From the IMG/VR virus record IMGVR_UViG_3300028858_000159, positions 1-27,902 of that record: a DNA stretch of 27,902 nt; one strand, 5' to 3'. This document shows positions 6,479 to 24,838 of this stretch, piece by piece. Every line of letters begins with the position of its first letter. Position 1 is the stretch's first letter. Under the pieces are notes generated by a model. The model saw only the letters and a program-made list of their open reading frames with translations. It had not been told where the DNA came from and ran no database searches. This DNA comes from a virus. The position numbers and the translations under genes were made by a program.

Positions 6479-6561
6479 AATGGAGAGATATTCCCTTTTA
6501 AGGGAGTTCACTCCCCCAGCGAGGGAAGATGCGGCAACGTATTTTCCCTCGCTTATTTATT
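6479..6561 (+). ncRNA. Candidate small structured RNA opposite to the packaging operon
   Basis: Downstream of a promoter-like sequence lie, on the plus strand, hairpin 1 (TCCCTT/AAGGGA, 6492-6505), an alternative hairpin (GGGAG 6502-6506 / CTCCC 6511-6515, loop TTCA) and a 16-bp hairpin at 6518-6553 capped by the GNRA tetraloop GCAA (6534-6537), then a T-rich stretch. Two pairs in the long stem are G-U, which hold only in plus-strand RNA and become C/A mismatches on the other strand. This points to a plus-strand RNA of roughly 80 bases whose final hairpin ends transcription. It overlaps only the stop codon of the portal fusion gene. Alternatively, the hairpins act in minus-strand mRNA processing. 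Confidence 0.4.
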
Positions 6562-9132
6562 GCCAAACCGTGTACGTAGCTTCGCCGCATCAAGGGTGAT
6601 GGGTCCCATACCTTTCCTGATCAGCACGATGGACTTAATGATCGTTCCGCGATTTGCCTGGAGGGCTGCTTTCAGGCCTTCGTACAGTTCCGTTGACGTG
6701 TAGGCGCCCTCCAGCCTGATGACCACCTCCTCGGCATGCTGTCTGGATGCCGATTTGACACTGTTCTGTATGGCATGCGACCCGCTCTTGGTGATCGGGT
6801 GCTTGGCGTCCGAGAACATGCCGGTCTTGTGGTTGAAGGCGTCCGGATTCTTTACTCCGGAGGTTTCCGGCAGCAAGGAGTATTTCCCACCAAGATCGGC
6901 AAGCTGCTTGTAGGTTTCGACGTTCTTTTTGAACTCGTTCTTGTTTTGCTTGACGATCTCCAGGCTCCCGCCCTTCTTGCCTTTGTAAACCTCAGTCTTC
7001 AGCTGTGTTTTTTCTGCCGCCCTCAGCATCGTCATAGCCGATGCGACGACATCCTTCCTGACAGCTTCCTCCGTATGCTGATAGTAGGGTGTCTGCTTGA
7101 TGTTCACGAACTCGGCTGTCTTCTCGGCATTGTTTCTGAAGGCGGGATTGGCGTCACCTTCGGGCACCTCGGTCGGCTTCTTGTCCGTCTGTCGGACGCC
7201 GCAGCTGCAATTCCAGTCGGAGGGCGGCATGTGCTCGTTCCACCACTCATGATCGATCGGTAGGATGGTTCCCACCCATGTCAGGTGCAGGGCGCGCTGA
7301 TGGACAGATACGCTCTCGATGTATTCCAGATTCGGGTACAGATGGGCCGACTGCTTGAACTTTTTCAGGTTGGCAGCCATGCGCGCAGCCTTCACAGCCG
7401 TGTTGTATTCGGTCTGCAACCATTCGATGTTGTACTTGGCCGACAGTTCCAGGGCCATCTTCTTGAATTTGTAGAAAGGTCGTAGCTTGCCATTCTCGTC
7501 AATCATCATGGCGGCCATCTCCTTAGTCTGCTGATGGTTCTTGAAAGCAGCAAATACGGCCGTATTGGTCTTGAACTGCTTGACAAAGTCGGAATGATCC
7601 TCCTTGATCGGAGCCAGCGACGTATTCACCGCATGTTGCAGGGGAACGTTCGTTGCCTGGAACAGCTTGGCGTTGATCAGCTCATCGGCCTTTCCCCCAT
7701 AAATATCCCTGATGGCCTGGTTGACCAGCTGGTCGATGTTGATCGTGTAGTCATCCGCAAGTGTGATCGTGGTACTGCTGGTCGATCTCCCGCTCCAGTT
7801 CTGATATGCCCCGCTCCTTAGCGTCGGGGCGTAGCCGAAAAAACGTTCAAGCAGTTTGACGAAAAATCCGTGGTCATCGTTCTTGATCTCATCCTTGGTT
7901 TTATCCACCGCAACCGTTTTGTCCTTTCCGGCTTCCTTGGTTGTCGGGGGCTTTGCGTCAGTTCCTCCGCTCGGATCGGGATCTTTTTTTTCGGACTTGG
8001 GTATGCCGGTGATCTCGTAGAAGTAATCGTCGCTCACCGCTATGCCTTGCTTCTTTAGGCTTAGGGCCATGTCGACGCGCTCCTTGGTCGAGATGCGCTC
8101 TCCTCCGTCCGGAAAGGTGAAAAATCCACCGGCCACGTTATAACCGCGCTTGATCAGCAGCGGAACAATTTTGCGGTTAAGGATGCGTTGGATAAAGCGG
8201 CGGTCCGACTTGGTTATGTCCTTCTGTCCGTTCTCATGCACCTCGGCCTGCGATTTGCTTGATCCGTCGACGGTTGTCATGACGTTTCCCAGGACAGCGA
8301 TAAGTATTTCCTCGTTGCAAGCCTTGCGAAAGGTGGCATACAGGTCGCTGCTACCGGAGGACTTGTTCTCGTGAACTTCGATCTCCGACTCTTTGGGCAC
8401 GGCCGCTACCCTGTTCCCTCCGAGTGTCGACAGGGCTTCAAAGAGTTGGTCGCGAGTGTTGGTGTCGTACGAACTGTACTTGCCGGTCACGAACGGCATG
8501 CCGAACAGCTCGGCGAATTGCGCCCAGTCTCCGAAATTGCCGCGCTTGTAGATCACGTACGGTGCCGCTTTGAATACATATCCCAGGTCATCATCCTTTC
8601 CGGCCTCGATGATGAAGTCGTCCAATGTGTAGTCGTAACCTGTCAGGTCCGATTCCTTGGCCACGATATATTTCCTTCGTTCCGCCAGCGGCTTGTCCAC
8701 GTTGGTGATCTTGATGTGCTTTCTCGGATAGGAGAACACGGAGAATTCAGGCAGGAATGCCATTTCTATGACACTTTTGCCGAAAGCCTTGCTCAGGGCG
8801 ATTTCCCGTATCAACTCCTCAAATTCGGGGGTGTCGATCAGATCGTCGATTTCCTCGACGTTCTTTCCGTCCATCTGGAAGGTGATCTCCGCATTGGTGA
8901 TGGCGTTCACGCGCTTTTCAATGGCATCCGACAGGTATGGGTCTGCCAGTATGTTTTCGCACAGGTCGTAGTATTTCGTGCGGTTGCCGGTTTTAAATCC
9001 GTTGACGGCCTTTTTCCAAACGTCGATGTCGGTTGTCTCAATCTTGGCCGGACGTAGGACAAGGGTTTGTATGATTGCGCTCGCGGCCGGACTTTCCAGC
9101 TTGGGAGCCTGGGGTGCATCTTTCTTTTTCAT
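6553..9132 (-). CDS. Portal (DUF935) - MuF head morphogenesis - C-terminal nuclease/toxin-like fusion
   Basis: An 859-residue protein that seems to join three units. Residues about 1-375 look like a Mu gp29/DUF935 portal, the dodecameric DNA channel at the capsid vertex. A Pro/Lys/Asp-rich linker spans about 375-420. Residues about 420-690 look like a MuF/SPP1 gp7 minor head protein, ending with the family-typical WVGTILPIDHEWW ... MPPSDWNCSCGV region (W near 640). Residues about 690-859 form an extra domain with NPDA (Asp764), SDAK (Asp775, Lys777) and a conserved-looking ASRQHAEEVVI helix, resembling CdiA-CT or PBECR-type nuclease domains known to be fused to MuF. Portal and MuF are separate genes in Mu. 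The start overlaps the DUF1320 gene by 4 bases. Confidence 0.85.
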   Translation of the reverse strand: MKKKDAPQAPKLESPAASAIIQTLVLRPAKIETTDIDVWKKAVNGFKTGNRTKYYDLCENILADPYLSDAIEKRVNAITNAEITFQMDGKNVEEIDDLIDTPEFEELIREIALSKAFGKSVIEMAFLPEFSVFSYPRKHIKITNVDKPLAERRKYIVAKESDLTGYDYTLDDFIIEAGKDDDLGYVFKAAPYVIYKRGNFGDWAQFAELFGMPFVTGKYSSYDTNTRDQLFEALSTLGGNRVAAVPKESEIEVHENKSSGSSDLYATFRKACNEEILIAVLGNVMTTVDGSSKSQAEVHENGQKDITKSDRRFIQRILNRKIVPLLIKRGYNVAGGFFTFPDGGERISTKERVDMALSLKKQGIAVSDDYFYEITGIPKSEKKDPDPSGGTDAKPPTTKEAGKDKTVAVDKTKDEIKNDDHGFFVKLLERFFGYAPTLRSGAYQNWSGRSTSSTTITLADDYTINIDQLVNQAIRDIYGGKADELINAKLFQATNVPLQHAVNTSLAPIKEDHSDFVKQFKTNTAVFAAFKNHQQTKEMAAMMIDENGKLRPFYKFKKMALELSAKYNIEWLQTEYNTAVKAARMAANLKKFKQSAHLYPNLEYIESVSVHQRALHLTWVGTILPIDHEWWNEHMPPSDWNCSCGVRQTDKKPTEVPEGDANPAFRNNAEKTAEFVNIKQTPYYQHTEEAVRKDVVASAMTMLRAAEKTQLKTEVYKGKKGGSLEIVKQNKNEFKKNVETYKQLADLGGKYSLLPETSGVKNPDAFNHKTGMFSDAKHPITKSGSHAIQNSVKSASRQHAEEVVIRLEGAYTSTELYEGLKAALQANRGTIIKSIVLIRKGMGPITLDAAKLRTRFGNK

Positions 9133-9548
9133 ATATGTTGGTTTCTTCTTGGGTTGCTGGAAAAGCGAAACTGCGTATTGTTCTCGACCGCACCCGTAGC
9201 ATCTATCCTCACTGGAAAGTCCGGAACGATGCTGCCTTTCTGTACTCCTTTAAGCCATGCGATGGCCGAGTTGTAACGTCTCTCCTTGGCCTCGTAGTCG
9301 ACCGACGGGTTGGCAATGTTGATGTAGTGCCAAACGGCGATGTCCTTGACCCAAATGAGCAGCAAGGCGTCACGTGACTCTTCGGATGCGTTAAAGATGG
9401 CATCCGTGTCAAACGCATGCAGGTAGCCTTTGGCTTCTGCCTGCCCGCCCGATATGGCGGCGGTAAGCAACCTGTCATCGTCGCCGCTGATGGCCGTGAT
9501 CGTTTCCGGATACAGGTGAGTGAATATTTCTTCAGATGTTAGGAACAT
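9129..9548 (-). CDS. Head-tail connector, DUF1320 / Mu gp36-like
   Basis: A 139-residue protein with an N-terminal segment MFLTSEEIFTHLYPETI and a helical core containing LLTAAISGGQAEAKGYLHAFD and DALLLIWVKDIAVWHYI (about residues 27-85), then YNSAIAWLKGVQKG. This arrangement is typical of the DUF1320 family (Mu gp36), small connector proteins that sit between portal and tail, structurally like HK97 gp6. It is located between terminase and portal genes on the minus strand, 2 bases after the TerL stop and overlapping the portal fusion start by 4 bases. Confidence 0.85.
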   Translation of the reverse strand: MFLTSEEIFTHLYPETITAISGDDDRLLTAAISGGQAEAKGYLHAFDTDAIFNASEESRDALLLIWVKDIAVWHYINIANPSVDYEAKERRYNSAIAWLKGVQKGSIVPDFPVRIDATGAVENNTQFRFSSNPRRNQHI

Positions 9549-20776: not shown

Positions 20777-21727
20777 ATGATGAAAGGAGCTTGCATCATA
20801 GATGGAATAGATATTTCGGACTTTGGGATGTTCATCCTAAGGGAAGGGGACAATGATCTGTTGACTTTTCCAGAAAGGAAAGAGCCGGCACAGAATGATT
20901 GGTTCGAGCTCGAAGGATTGGACGTAGACTTGTCTGAAGTATTTTTCAGTGAAAGGAAGGTTACCGTCCAGTTTTATCTGAGTGCCCCATCGACAGCGGA
21001 ATTCATGTACAATCTTGACAGCTTCTATTCGATCATGATGATGCCTGGTTACCGGAATATTTACATGAGGGATTTTAACAAGACCTTCACGCTTCGTTAT
21101 CTCGGATGCCCGGCATACGAACATAGGCACGGCCTTGCCGCTGGCGGGAAGAAAGCCGGATACATAACAATGGACTTTATGATGGATGATCCGTTGCAGG
21201 TCTTCGGTCTTTCAACGCAACCGGTGTCAGCCCGTCCGAATCAATCGCACGTGACCATCAACGGGCTGGACCTGTCCCTCTTTGGCATTATCATCCAAAA
21301 GGTGTACCACACGGCCCTTAAGGCGCCCATGATCAAGGAAGGGCTTACCAGGAGAATAGAGCGCATGACCGGCCAATTGGCCGGCACCGGATTCACGCCG
21401 GTCGGAAAGTCGAAGGACATCACATTCGAGTGCACCATGATGGCTGACACGAGGAGTGAGTTCTATGACAATTACGATGCGCTCTTTCACCAGGCAACGA
21501 TAACTGAGCCTGTCGAGCTCGGATTCGTGGAAGGGCGAACGGCGCTGTGCTATTACTCCAAGATGGATTCTTTTGTAAAGCTCAAGCCACTCTCGGCAGG
21601 TGCGAGCGTGACGTTCAACATCACTTTCAAGACCATCGATTCGGGCAGTCTCTTCATTGACGATCTGCGTGTGACGGAAGATGGACAGGTACGCATTACT
21701 GAGGACGGATTCGATCGTAAATTATGA
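20777..21727 (+). CDS. Distal tail (Dit-like) protein with duplicated core
   Basis: A 316-residue beta-rich protein immediately after the tape measure (1-base gap), the usual place of Dit, the hub at the tail tip. Two similar halves can be seen: IIDGIDISDFGMFIL (about residues 6-20) recurs as TINGLDLSLFGIIIQ (about 160-174), and FYLSAPSTAEFMYNLDSFYS has a counterpart ECTMMADTRSEFYDNYDALF. This suggests an internal duplication of the N-terminal tail-hub fold. A short acidic end (RVTEDGQVRITEDGF) follows. ATG at 20777; a second ATG at 20780 is equally possible. Confidence 0.8.
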   Translation: MMKGACIIDGIDISDFGMFILREGDNDLLTFPERKEPAQNDWFELEGLDVDLSEVFFSERKVTVQFYLSAPSTAEFMYNLDSFYSIMMMPGYRNIYMRDFNKTFTLRYLGCPAYEHRHGLAAGGKKAGYITMDFMMDDPLQVFGLSTQPVSARPNQSHVTINGLDLSLFGIIIQKVYHTALKAPMIKEGLTRRIERMTGQLAGTGFTPVGKSKDITFECTMMADTRSEFYDNYDALFHQATITEPVELGFVEGRTALCYYSKMDSFVKLKPLSAGASVTFNITFKTIDSGSLFIDDLRVTEDGQVRITEDGFDRKL

Positions 21728-21744
21728 TTTAAACACAATTTAAA

Positions 21745-23187
21745 ATGGCAAAAAAAATATCAGGTTTGGACCCAGCCGGCACATTGACCGGTCAGGAATT
21801 TTTTGAAGCAGTTCAAAAGGGTAATAGCGTAAAGGTCACAGCTGATCAGATTGCGACCCATGCCCTTGGACGTTTTAACCCAAAGATTTGGGGCATAAGA
21901 AAACAGAGTGGGTCGGCTTCCATATTTTGGGAGCGAATCAATCCGGAGATGCATGCAGAACGGCGGGTGCATAAGCAATGTGGCCGCTATTTGGAGGATT
22001 CAAATGCAAACATAATTGATCTACATCCAACTGATAGTCGAAAGTCTTTTTCCGGAGCCAGTGTCGATTTAACAGGATCACAGGGAAATGTATGGTGGCG
22101 TAAGCCGGCTTACTATTTTAAAGCAGAAATCGTCCAGGCAACGGACGGGCTTTGGTATGAATATCAATGGATGTCCGACAACTATTTTGATGGTGCAACG
22201 TACATGAAAGAGCGTTCATGCTCGCCATGGCACATGGTGGTCAATCGTGCAACAAGTGTTGCGGCCTCTTTGTCATTTTTGACTTGGAATAATGATGGTT
22301 CAATTGTAAGAAATGGAAACGGATTTCCTGTTTACACTGCAAATGCAACTACATACCGTGGAGGCAGCAATAATGCAGCTCTTGATGGTACTGCTTCGAG
22401 CATGCTTGGCATGGGTATATCCGTGATTGATATCAATACGGCACGTTATTTTTCCCGAAATGCTGGTGCTCACTGTGGTTGGTTTTCAATACTTGATGAG
22501 ATACGAACACTATACCGATTTGAATACGCCTGTGATGATATCCAACAGGGATATAATCCTACTCTTGATGCGTATGGAAATAAGCAAGGCGGTCTTGGAA
22601 CCGGAAAATCAGTCGGAGGTGAATGGGGTACATTTAACGGATACCATCCATTCATTCCGATGGGTGTTACCTGCCCACTTGGTAATCAATCAGGACTTGT
22701 TTCCTATACGATTAAGGATTGGGGAGGCGCTGGCATTGACAAAATAATTCAGGTTGATTCATTCCTTGGCCTCGAAATATTATGCGAACATATTTGGACT
22801 GGGGCTGAAGATTTACTGATTTATCATGACGTCGCACAGAATAAAGTAAAAGCATATTATTGTGATGATCCTACAAAATTTGCCAATCCACTCTCCGATT
22901 CTTCAGTGGTTGTACCTATTGGATACAAGCATGTTTGCGATATGGCTCCAACATCTGGTTGGATGGCTGCAATCTCATTACCACCGCTATGTTTACCAAC
23001 TGCTGTCGGCGGATCACCTGGCCTATATGTTCCAGACTATTATTGGGCACCTCCAGATTCTGGCTGGTACACCTCCGGCCTGGGCGCCAGTGCGTATGAT
23101 GGGTCGCATGCGGGTCTCGCCTCGCTGGCTGCGTATCGTCGCGTCTCGGTCGCGATTGCGTATTGGGGCTTCCGTCTGTGCCGTTAA
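21745..23187 (+). CDS. DGR variable protein: tail-tip receptor-binding protein with C-type-lectin-like end
   Basis: A 480-residue protein whose last 38 codons are the variable region of the retroelement. The N-terminus (ISGLDPAGTLTGQEFFEAVQKGNSVKVTADQI, in part) resembles virion-attachment segments of Bacteroides phage tail proteins. The body is rich in aromatic residues, and the C-terminus ends in WYTSGLGAS ... YWGFRLCR, typical of the CLec fold of DGR target proteins (compare Mtd), where the variable residues form the ligand surface. Thirteen residues differ from the template: 449, 451, 452, 455, 462, 464, 465, 469, 470, 471, 473, 478 and 479. Context places it in the tail tip, so it probably binds host surface receptors. 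The body of the gene is more AT-rich than the Dit gene. Confidence 0.92.
   Translation: MAKKISGLDPAGTLTGQEFFEAVQKGNSVKVTADQIATHALGRFNPKIWGIRKQSGSASIFWERINPEMHAERRVHKQCGRYLEDSNANIIDLHPTDSRKSFSGASVDLTGSQGNVWWRKPAYYFKAEIVQATDGLWYEYQWMSDNYFDGATYMKERSCSPWHMVVNRATSVAASLSFLTWNNDGSIVRNGNGFPVYTANATTYRGGSNNAALDGTASSMLGMGISVIDINTARYFSRNAGAHCGWFSILDEIRTLYRFEYACDDIQQGYNPTLDAYGNKQGGLGTGKSVGGEWGTFNGYHPFIPMGVTCPLGNQSGLVSYTIKDWGGAGIDKIIQVDSFLGLEILCEHIWTGAEDLLIYHDVAQNKVKAYYCDDPTKFANPLSDSSVVVPIGYKHVCDMAPTSGWMAAISLPPLCLPTAVGGSPGLYVPDYYWAPPDSGWYTSGLGASAYDGSHAGLASLAAYRRVSVAIAYWGFRLCR
23073..23184 (+). repeat. DGR variable repeat (VR)
   Basis: The 112 bases before the stop codon of the target gene match 23234-23345 with an offset of 161. 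There are 16 mismatches, every one where the template has A (substituted by G, T or C). The other 89 template positions are identical. Similarity stops abruptly on both sides (23072 and 23185). Confidence 0.97.
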
Positions 23188-23222
23188 AACGCAAAGCGTG
23201 AAGCGTGAAAAGTAAAATAGGA

Positions 23223-23368
23223 TACAGCCCATGCTCCGGCCTGGGCGCCAATGCGAATAATGGGTCGAATGCGGGTCTCGCCTCGCTGAATGCGAATAAT
23301 CGCGTCTCGATCACGAATGCGAATTGGGGCTTCCGTCAATACCGTATAAAAAAATTGATTGGGCTGTA
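23223..23368 (+). repeat. 9-bp inverted repeat bracketing the TR
   Basis: TACAGCCCA at 23223-23231 and TGGGCTGTA at 23360-23368 are perfectly complementary. The left arm ends two bases before TR and the right arm begins 14 bases after it. In RNA this would close a panhandle around the whole template. The VR has no such flanks. Confidence 0.6.
23234..23345 (+). repeat. DGR template repeat (TR)
   Basis: The non-coding copy of VR, located between the target gene and the reverse transcriptase. It has 23 adenines, largely in AAT codons when read in VR frame (N-A-N-N ... N-A-N-N ... T-N-A-N-W), the codon pattern that gives the widest amino-acid choice under adenine mutagenesis; 16 of these 23 are altered in VR. 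The RNA copy should be the substrate of the reverse transcriptase. Confidence 0.97.
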
Positions 23369-23450
23369 CTCCCTGCCTCTTGGCAAAAAATAAATACGAA
23401 CAAGCAGTATTAGTAAGCTATTGAACATTCTGCTAAAAATTACGGCACAG

Positions 23451-24449
23451 ATGCCAAAACGGTTATATAATTTACATTACAGGCTTTGTGATCTACAGAA
23501 CATAACACTGGGGTATCACTTGGCTCAGAAGGGCAAATCAAACCGCACCGATATCAAGGCTTTTACTTCAAATTTGAATAGAAACCTGATTGATATATGG
23601 AGTGATCTGGATTCTTTGAGGTATGTCCATGGTCGGTATAGAACAATGATTGTTCAGCAGACAAAGAGACGCGTAATCAACATCGCTCCATTCAGGGATC
23701 GGGTCGTGCATCATTGTTTCATCAATGTTATTAAGCCAACCTGGGAAAGCGTATATATTGATAATACCTATGCCTGCCGAAAGGGTTATGGTATCCATAA
23801 ATGTTTAACTGATGTTGTCTCATGCCTCAAGGATGTAGAGGCCACTGGATATGTACTTCAAATTGATATTAAGCAGTACTATGACAACATTGATCATGAC
23901 GTCCTTAAAGCGATTGAACGAAAGAGGATTGCAGATGAGGACTTCATGCTGATCAGTGACAGGATTACAAACAGTTTCGCTCCTGGAATACCCAAGGGCA
24001 ACTATACAAGCCAGTATAAGGCCAATCTCTACCTGTCCTACTTTGATCATTATGTCAAGGAACAACTGAAGGTAAAATACTATTTCCGATATATGGACGA
24101 CATGGTTTTCTTTGCTTCAACAAAATCTGAACTGCGACATGTGTATGAACAGATAGAAAAATATCTGCGTGAAAATTTGAAGCTGACAATCAAGTCAAAC
24201 TGGCAGATTTACCCTATTGACTCCCGTCCGCTTGATTTTGTTGGATATAAGGCTGATCACAATGGAGTGCTGCTTCGCAAAAACATACTTAAAAACTATT
24301 ACCGGAAGCTTGATCACCTAAAGACCAAATATGACATTATTGACCAGGATAATATAAAACACAACCTCTCTTCTTATTGGGGTTGGCTCGGGTATTGTTC
24401 GGAGTATCATTTTGAAAACGTAATTAAACAATCTTTAAACGCTAAATAA
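23451..24449 (+). CDS. DGR reverse transcriptase
   Basis: A 332-residue enzyme from ATG 23451 (a TTG at 23421 would add 10 residues; MPKRLYNLHYRLCD is the more family-like start). RT fingers/palm motifs are visible: RDRVVHH (about residues 82-88), IDIKQYYDNIDH with catalytic Asp139, GIPKGNYTSQ (GNYTSQ at 183-188), YMDD (214-217) with two catalytic Asp, and FVGYK. The GNxxSQ form at motif 4, in place of the QGxxxSP of group II intron RTs, is diagnostic for DGR enzymes. It copies TR RNA into cDNA while misincorporating at adenines, and the product replaces VR. No maturase, endonuclease or integrase domain is present. AT-richer than neighbouring tail genes. Confidence 0.97.
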   Translation: MPKRLYNLHYRLCDLQNITLGYHLAQKGKSNRTDIKAFTSNLNRNLIDIWSDLDSLRYVHGRYRTMIVQQTKRRVINIAPFRDRVVHHCFINVIKPTWESVYIDNTYACRKGYGIHKCLTDVVSCLKDVEATGYVLQIDIKQYYDNIDHDVLKAIERKRIADEDFMLISDRITNSFAPGIPKGNYTSQYKANLYLSYFDHYVKEQLKVKYYFRYMDDMVFFASTKSELRHVYEQIEKYLRENLKLTIKSNWQIYPIDSRPLDFVGYKADHNGVLLRKNILKNYYRKLDHLKTKYDIIDQDNIKHNLSSYWGWLGYCSEYHFENVIKQSLNAK

Positions 24450-24451
24450 CT

Positions 24452-24838
24452 ATGAAAAAAGTGGTGTTGATGGTAGATGTCTTTACAACAGAACTACCGA
24501 AAAGTATTCAAAGGCTTGACTTGAAATCATTTTATTACCGGTATGATATTAAAAGCACAAACCGGCTGATAGAAGGTAAGGACCTATCAGGCTTCATGCA
24601 TAACGATCTCTATGTTGAAGGTGATCTTACTCAAAGTGAGATCATGCGCTCTTGGCTGAGTGCTGTTTATCCAATAGATCAAGAGTTAAAGCTGCTTAAC
24701 GACTTCAACGCTTTTACATCCGGAATAACAGGCGATGCTGCCAAGAAGGTAGAGTATGAAACATACCTGGCAAAGCGCAAGGATTTTCGTGAGCAGTTGG
24801 CCCTTGATTTTGAAACTTATATGGCCGATCAACTATGA
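24452..24838 (+). CDS. Unknown 128-residue protein next to the RT
   Basis: A 128-residue protein starting 2 bases after the RT stop, so co-transcribed with it. It has a hydrophobic N-terminal strand (KKVVLMVDVFTTEL), a central YVEGDLTQSEIMRSWLSAVYPID and a charged C-terminal helical segment (YLAKRKDFREQLALDFETYM). Its length equals that of Bordetella Avd, but the sequence does not look like the basic four-helix Avd family and has predicted strand content at the N-terminus. It could be a tail component or an unknown DGR accessory. Its stop overlaps the next start by 4 bases. Confidence 0.6.
   Translation: MKKVVLMVDVFTTELPKSIQRLDLKSFYYRYDIKSTNRLIEGKDLSGFMHNDLYVEGDLTQSEIMRSWLSAVYPIDQELKLLNDFNAFTSGITGDAAKKVEYETYLAKRKDFREQLALDFETYMADQL

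Follow-up and report, generated by a model that had tools for sequence, protein, structure and literature searches.

The window analysed here is the whole of the 27,902-base IMG/VR virus contig IMGVR_UViG_3300028858_000159, in which a cassette is flanked by a Dit-like gene of the tail (20777-21727) and, from 25136, by a prophage-tail gene matching PF06605. The cassette has the parts of a diversity-generating retroelement (DGR), which uses error-prone copying of a nearby template to rewrite a tail protein at its end: a target gene ending in the VR, a template TR, a structured spacer (Sp), and a reverse transcriptase (RT). Its features are as follows.

21745-23187, plus strand: target gene, encoding a 480 aa tail protein (PHROG 5302, E 1.4e-47), with the VR as its final 37 codons
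23073-23184, plus strand: VR, 112 bp, with 16 mismatches to the TR, all at template adenines
23089-23162, plus strand: part of the VR showing adenine mutagenesis, with 13 of 20 template adenines changed, affecting 11 residues
23176-23184, plus strand: IMH segment CTGTGCCGT (Leu-Cys-Arg), with fixed, non-random differences from the TR
23234-23345, plus strand: TR, ending in IMH* CAATACCGT at 23337-23345
23368-23453, plus strand: Sp RNA domain of the template RNA, Rfam RT-17 (RF03020 at 23369-23452, 41.0 bits against a gathering score of 40.4)
23374-23385, plus strand: Sp hairpin 1, TGCC-TCTT-GGCA, with GC/AU covariation in A3
23404-23433, plus strand: Sp helix 2, GCAG...CTGC around an internal loop of AGUA (23412-23415) and GAA (23423-23425), with compensatory changes in 6 of 8 pairs
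23451-24449, plus strand: RT, 332 aa from its ATG in a frame open from 23421, with GNYTSQ and YMDD
24452-24838, plus strand: gene of 128 aa, with a homologue after the target of a DGR-less Porphyromonas phage and another after the target homologue G024

The phage and its tail-protein target

The head module is of the Mu type by profile matches (Portal_Mu, E 2.3e-69; Phage_tail_S, E 1.5e-11), with weaker Mu_F and Gp36 matches in the head region, and an AAA_22 ATPase fragment like those of MuB-type ATPases sits at the left edge of the contig. The hallmarks of a Mu-like phage, Mu-type portal and head genes and a transposition ATPase, are thus present, with MuA falling outside the contig. A gene of 1,394 codons without a Pfam match is read as the tape measure. 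Of 295 Bacteroidales genomes, 41 have a relative of the portal, and the RTs nearest to that of the window come nearly all from Bacteroidales. Given these relatives, the long tape measure and the Dit- and Tal-type tail genes, a Bacteroidales host and a siphophage form are credible, in keeping with the initial annotation of the source as a Mu-like Bacteroidota siphophage.

Other features of the contig are peripheral to the cassette. The portal/minor head fusion (6553-9132) ends in residues 771-840 with a weak CdiA_C-like toxin domain match, below the cut-off at E 6.3e-5. The tail gene 3' of the DGR contains an internal repeat, about 440 bp long and near-identical between copies, within which the contig ends (27329-27902, and L257). 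On the sister contig L257, to the right of where the window stops, positions 8462-9298 hold a likely DNA adenine methyltransferase gene, recognised by eye from the translation.

The target is probably a receptor-binding protein. Its AlphaFold2 model, built from 48 homologues, has a pLDDT of 87 and replaces a poor first model from 13 sequences (pLDDT 45). Among PDB folds the model matches best the DGR variable protein TaqVP (5vf4; E 0.05, prob 0.75), with BPP-1 Mtd at rank 19, and the predicted viral structures that match it include crAss-like tail fibres and a Treponema denticola variable-protein-like entry. The initial annotation had proposed a C-type-lectin-like end and asked that the C-terminus be modelled; with a DGR variable protein as the closest PDB fold but an E of only 0.05, the predicted fold is likely and moderately supported.

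Adenine changes and the fixed homing segment

The VR lies in frame at the 3' end of the target gene and reaches its stop codon. The TR has 23 adenines and 89 other bases; all 16 mismatches fall on adenines (hypergeometric P 2.6e-14; 8 A>G, 5 A>T and 3 A>C) and none of the 89 other bases differs. Both the coordinates and the counts of the initial annotation hold, as does its conclusion of past adenine-specific retrohoming into a tail gene. Its figures of 16 of 23 adenines and 13 residues are correct as differences from the template, but they overstate the mutagenesis. The last three changes, at 23177, 23178 and 23180, are fixed IMH/IMH* differences, and the pattern recurs in related loci: the last template adenine is G in the VR at 37 of 37 distinct loci, and of the 33 whose TR has no A beside it, 32 have a non-A mismatch at that neighbouring site. 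Across the 37 loci the VR ends in TGTGCCGT (in one locus TTTGCCGT) and the TR in TTTACCGT, CTATACCGT or CAATACCGT, while the internal TR-A columns are close to random in the VR (most at 1.4-2.0 bits) with zero non-A changes. Leu478 and Cys479 do not vary among 48 target proteins, one of them that of the DGR-less L217. The 3' segment of the VR with its fixed changes is the IMH, facing the IMH* of the TR. Given that 3 of the 16 changes are fixed across loci, true mutagenesis amounts to 13 of 20 adenine sites and 11 residues, 2 of the 13 differing codons lying in the IMH segment.

In related TRs the sequence context of adenines shows a further regularity. Within the clade, template adenines in a TAC context have almost never changed (1 of 16); the figure is 51% in AAT and 74% in GAA contexts, and 40% in other DGRs. 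Nearly all of these TAC adenines fall in one column, -48 relative to the Cys codon, so context and selection are inseparable as causes.

The VR and TR are separated by 49 nt, which leaves no room for avd, and the accessory protein Avd of BPP-1-type elements was likewise not found elsewhere. PF22296 (bAvd) has no match in the window or in the virus records of its relatives, although it is positive in a Bordetella hinzii control, a genome with BPP-1-like DGRs, and PF05635 has none in the record. The 128 aa gene after the RT was considered as a substitute and rejected, because it also follows the target in relatives where the RT is absent. The BPP-1-type hairpin after the VR, defined as GC-rich, 7-10 bp long and with a GRNA loop (PMC3240598), is not apparent at this site, where only a 4 bp stem forms and the fold is not significant (z -0.66). 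No second VR/TR pair exists in 32.2 kb, made up of the window and the 4,295 bases by which another contig, identical to it, extends it on the right.

Target homologues without an RT nearby occur in L003, L217, L226 and G024, the same downstream gene adjoining in L003 and G024. By this distribution the TR-RT part behaves as a removable module.

The reverse transcriptase and the activity of the element

The RT matches RVT_1 (2.2e-18) and phrog_1423 (1.3e-101). In a tree that also took in RTs of other kinds from the same bacterial genomes, it lies inside a Bacteroidales clade of 21 rows (SH-aLRT 100), most of which have a VR/TR pair of their own, and group II intron-like RTs lie outside that clade. 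The placement that the initial annotation expected for an RT with GNYTSQ and YMDD is thus borne out. A reading as a defence RT, raised by PADLOC matches to DRT/UG models, is ruled out by the tree and the VR/TR pair. Two non-DGR Bacteroidales RTs (L136 and L152), with SP in place of the SQ motif, fall inside the broader DGR portion of the tree. The solved structure that matches best is 8ub7 (E 9e-38), 26 orders of magnitude ahead of the next (1.6e-11); the entry is named just "Reverse transcriptase", and we take it to be most likely the RT of the BPP-1 DGR (bRT).

Alignment with 8ub7 reveals one unusual residue. The window RT reads GIPKGNYTSQ where 8ub7 reads GIPIGSLTSQ, which puts a Lys at the position of bRT Ile181, numbered by count along the alignment. 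Among 75 DGR RTs scored at this position, 60 have I, 10 V, 3 L, 1 Y (perhaps misaligned) and 1, that of the window, K. Reportedly, I181 of bRT influences adenine errors. As a lead from the alignment, the Lys could lower or change activity or fidelity.

Two other records of this phage (3300028777 and 3300031244) are identical to the window over their overlap; 3300031244 stops inside the target before the VR, and 3300028777 covers the VR, which is unchanged, with 12,158 bases of overlap compared. Since the only other record covering the VR is identical, the element gives no sign of recent diversification, and since identical contigs may be the same clone, activity is neither shown nor excluded. 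That the DGR is a relic, once functional but by now weakened or dead, perhaps because of the Lys that the window RT alone carries among those scored, would accord with the identical VR, but it is unlikely: the RT has an undamaged frame, YMDD and the conserved Arg aligned with bRT R74, the VR is in frame with 13 adenine sites changed and zero non-A changes, the TR and the fold of the spacer RNA are intact, and the second contig may be of the same clone. The copy in the window may thus be active at present.

Bacteroides phage Versailles and a B. acidifaciens prophage (L002/L050) have flanks that match at 100% over 900 bases upstream and over 1,300 bases downstream, TR and RT included, yet their VRs differ at 19 positions, each of them a template adenine. 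Similarly, L012 and L055 have 100% identical flanks and diverge only in the VR, with 15 of 16 changes at TR adenines. By this divergence, confined to the VR in pairs that match everywhere else along the stretch compared, close relatives, and with them the subfamily, are shown to be active in nature. The comparison of VR and TR in other records that the initial annotation proposed therefore came out in two ways, with A-only VR divergence among relatives but an identical sequence in the one other record that has this VR.

The spacer RNA and the element as a whole

Between TR and RT the window has a spacer that passes the Rfam RT-17 cut-off. Thirteen spacers yield a structure of 13 pairs, the same by RNAalifold and by hand, with compensatory changes in 7 of the pairs; 97% of its cells are paired, against 84% in shuffles, and the pairing is lost sharply when the structure is slid. 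A covariance model of our own scores the window spacer at 83.4 bits, the window having been in its training set. Across 100 loci this model found 49 matches, every one on the coding strand and nearly all directly after the TR (usually by 23-47 nt) or directly before the RT, and 11 of its 24 strongest loci lay outside the training set. Further, in whole-genome searches 5 of 5 independent RT-17 or RT-18 matches fell between the TR and RT of a complete DGR. The AGUA/GAA helix is found beside the TR in many other DGRs, including BPP-1-like elements with Avd. A regular-expression search for the helix misses members with an altered GAA (L010, L012, L055 and L056 have CAA), so its negatives are not proof of absence.

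In the window the motif ends at the start codon of the RT, as would suit a cis-regulator of RT translation lying outside the template RNA. Loci whose TR is downstream of the RT make that reading improbable: there the helix follows the TR in 8 of 12 and precedes the RT in 0 of 13, against 1.6% of random windows. Given that it follows the TR even in that arrangement, the RT-17 motif is part of the template RNA, and, by comparison with more than 100 relatives, a small structured RNA of this kind beside the template is a recurring part of DGRs. In BPP-1 the spacer folds and recruits bRT-Avd, according to PMC12875486, which cites Handa 2025. Because the helix is shared by elements with and without Avd and moves with the TR and not with the RT, it would be the likely handle by which DGR RTs take up their template, here without Avd. 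For the wider proposition, in which the orphan Rfam RNAs RT-17 and RT-18, with RT-14 a probable third, form the 3' spacer domain of template RNAs in DGRs and this helix is the likely RT handle, the chances are about even. Rfam lists RT-17 (RF03020) and RT-18 (RF03021) as sRNAs named after the RT. A search of the open literature found nothing that ties either to DGRs; an earlier mention is possible in Weinberg 2017, Wu 2018, Handa 2021 or Handa 2025.

Taken together, the window almost certainly holds a complete DGR that has no Avd, is ordered target-VR-TR-RT and is carried by a Mu-like phage with a host among the Bacteroidales. The completeness that the initial annotation had claimed is upheld by the A-only signature between VR and TR, the RT of the DGR clade with its xGxxxSQ motif, the IMH and IMH* at the 3' ends of the repeats, the structured spacer RNA after the TR (by RT-17 match, covariation and position tests) and a phage tail protein as target. 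An ordinary tandem duplication diverged by drift would place two copies side by side in the same orientation, as they are here, but it is refuted by the adenine bias (all 16 changes on 23 of 112 positions), by the RT and spacer RNA adjoining the TR, and by the same pattern in 37 related loci. In the mechanism proposed, an RNA covering the TR and the structured spacer with its RT-17 fold would be bound by the RT, presumably through the spacer. The RT would copy the TR from a putative priming site within the IMH*, misincorporating opposite adenines, and the cDNA would replace the VR upstream of the fixed IMH segment. The outcome would be tail proteins with changed C-terminal surface residues, on a target that may bind the receptor.

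The closest comparisons are with phage Versailles (ON453897) and the B. acidifaciens prophage, which share with the window a target homologue (39.7%), the VR-TR-RT order, a VR-TR gap without avd, an IMH ending TGTGCCGT and the fold of the spacer RNA. Unlike the window they are of a different phage, with an RT just 45% identical and some 60 aa longer at its N terminus, and with an expanded loop in spacer hairpin 1. The Hankyphage DGR of Bacteroides (PMC6199706) is likewise carried by a temperate, Mu-like (transposable) phage. PMC7290462 describes the crAssphage LMMB DGR, of lineage 3 (Wu et al. 2018), as TG-VR(IMH)-TR(IMH*)-RT without avd and its target as a tail-collar fibre type of C-type-lectin class 3, likenesses both; in contrast to the window, LMMB is a crAss-like podophage, and its VR is without the IMH residues SRLC/A, which the window VR keeps as RLC. 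By the definition of Wu et al. 2018 (PMC7290462), the window has the target-TR-RT order, the absence of avd and the RLC in the IMH of lineage 3/CLec3, an assignment made on these defining features. BPP-1 resembles the window in its A-specific mutagenesis, its RT (8ub7, taken as bRT) and its structured spacer after the TR, and the BPP-1-like L102 has the same AGUA/GAA helix; Avd and a hairpin of 7-10 bp after the VR, both required by BPP-1, were not found in the window.

The element in the window is in itself ordinary, its type (TG-VR-TR-RT without avd) being already published for crAss-like phages (PMC7290462). Its added value is comparative, in a base-level split of the mutagenised from the fixed homing segment over 37 loci. 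A named but unexplained Rfam RNA is, further, tied to the template RNAs of DGRs, so that the way in which Avd-less DGRs recognise their templates can be tested directly. The RT-17 link also gives a structure-based way to find DGR template RNAs.
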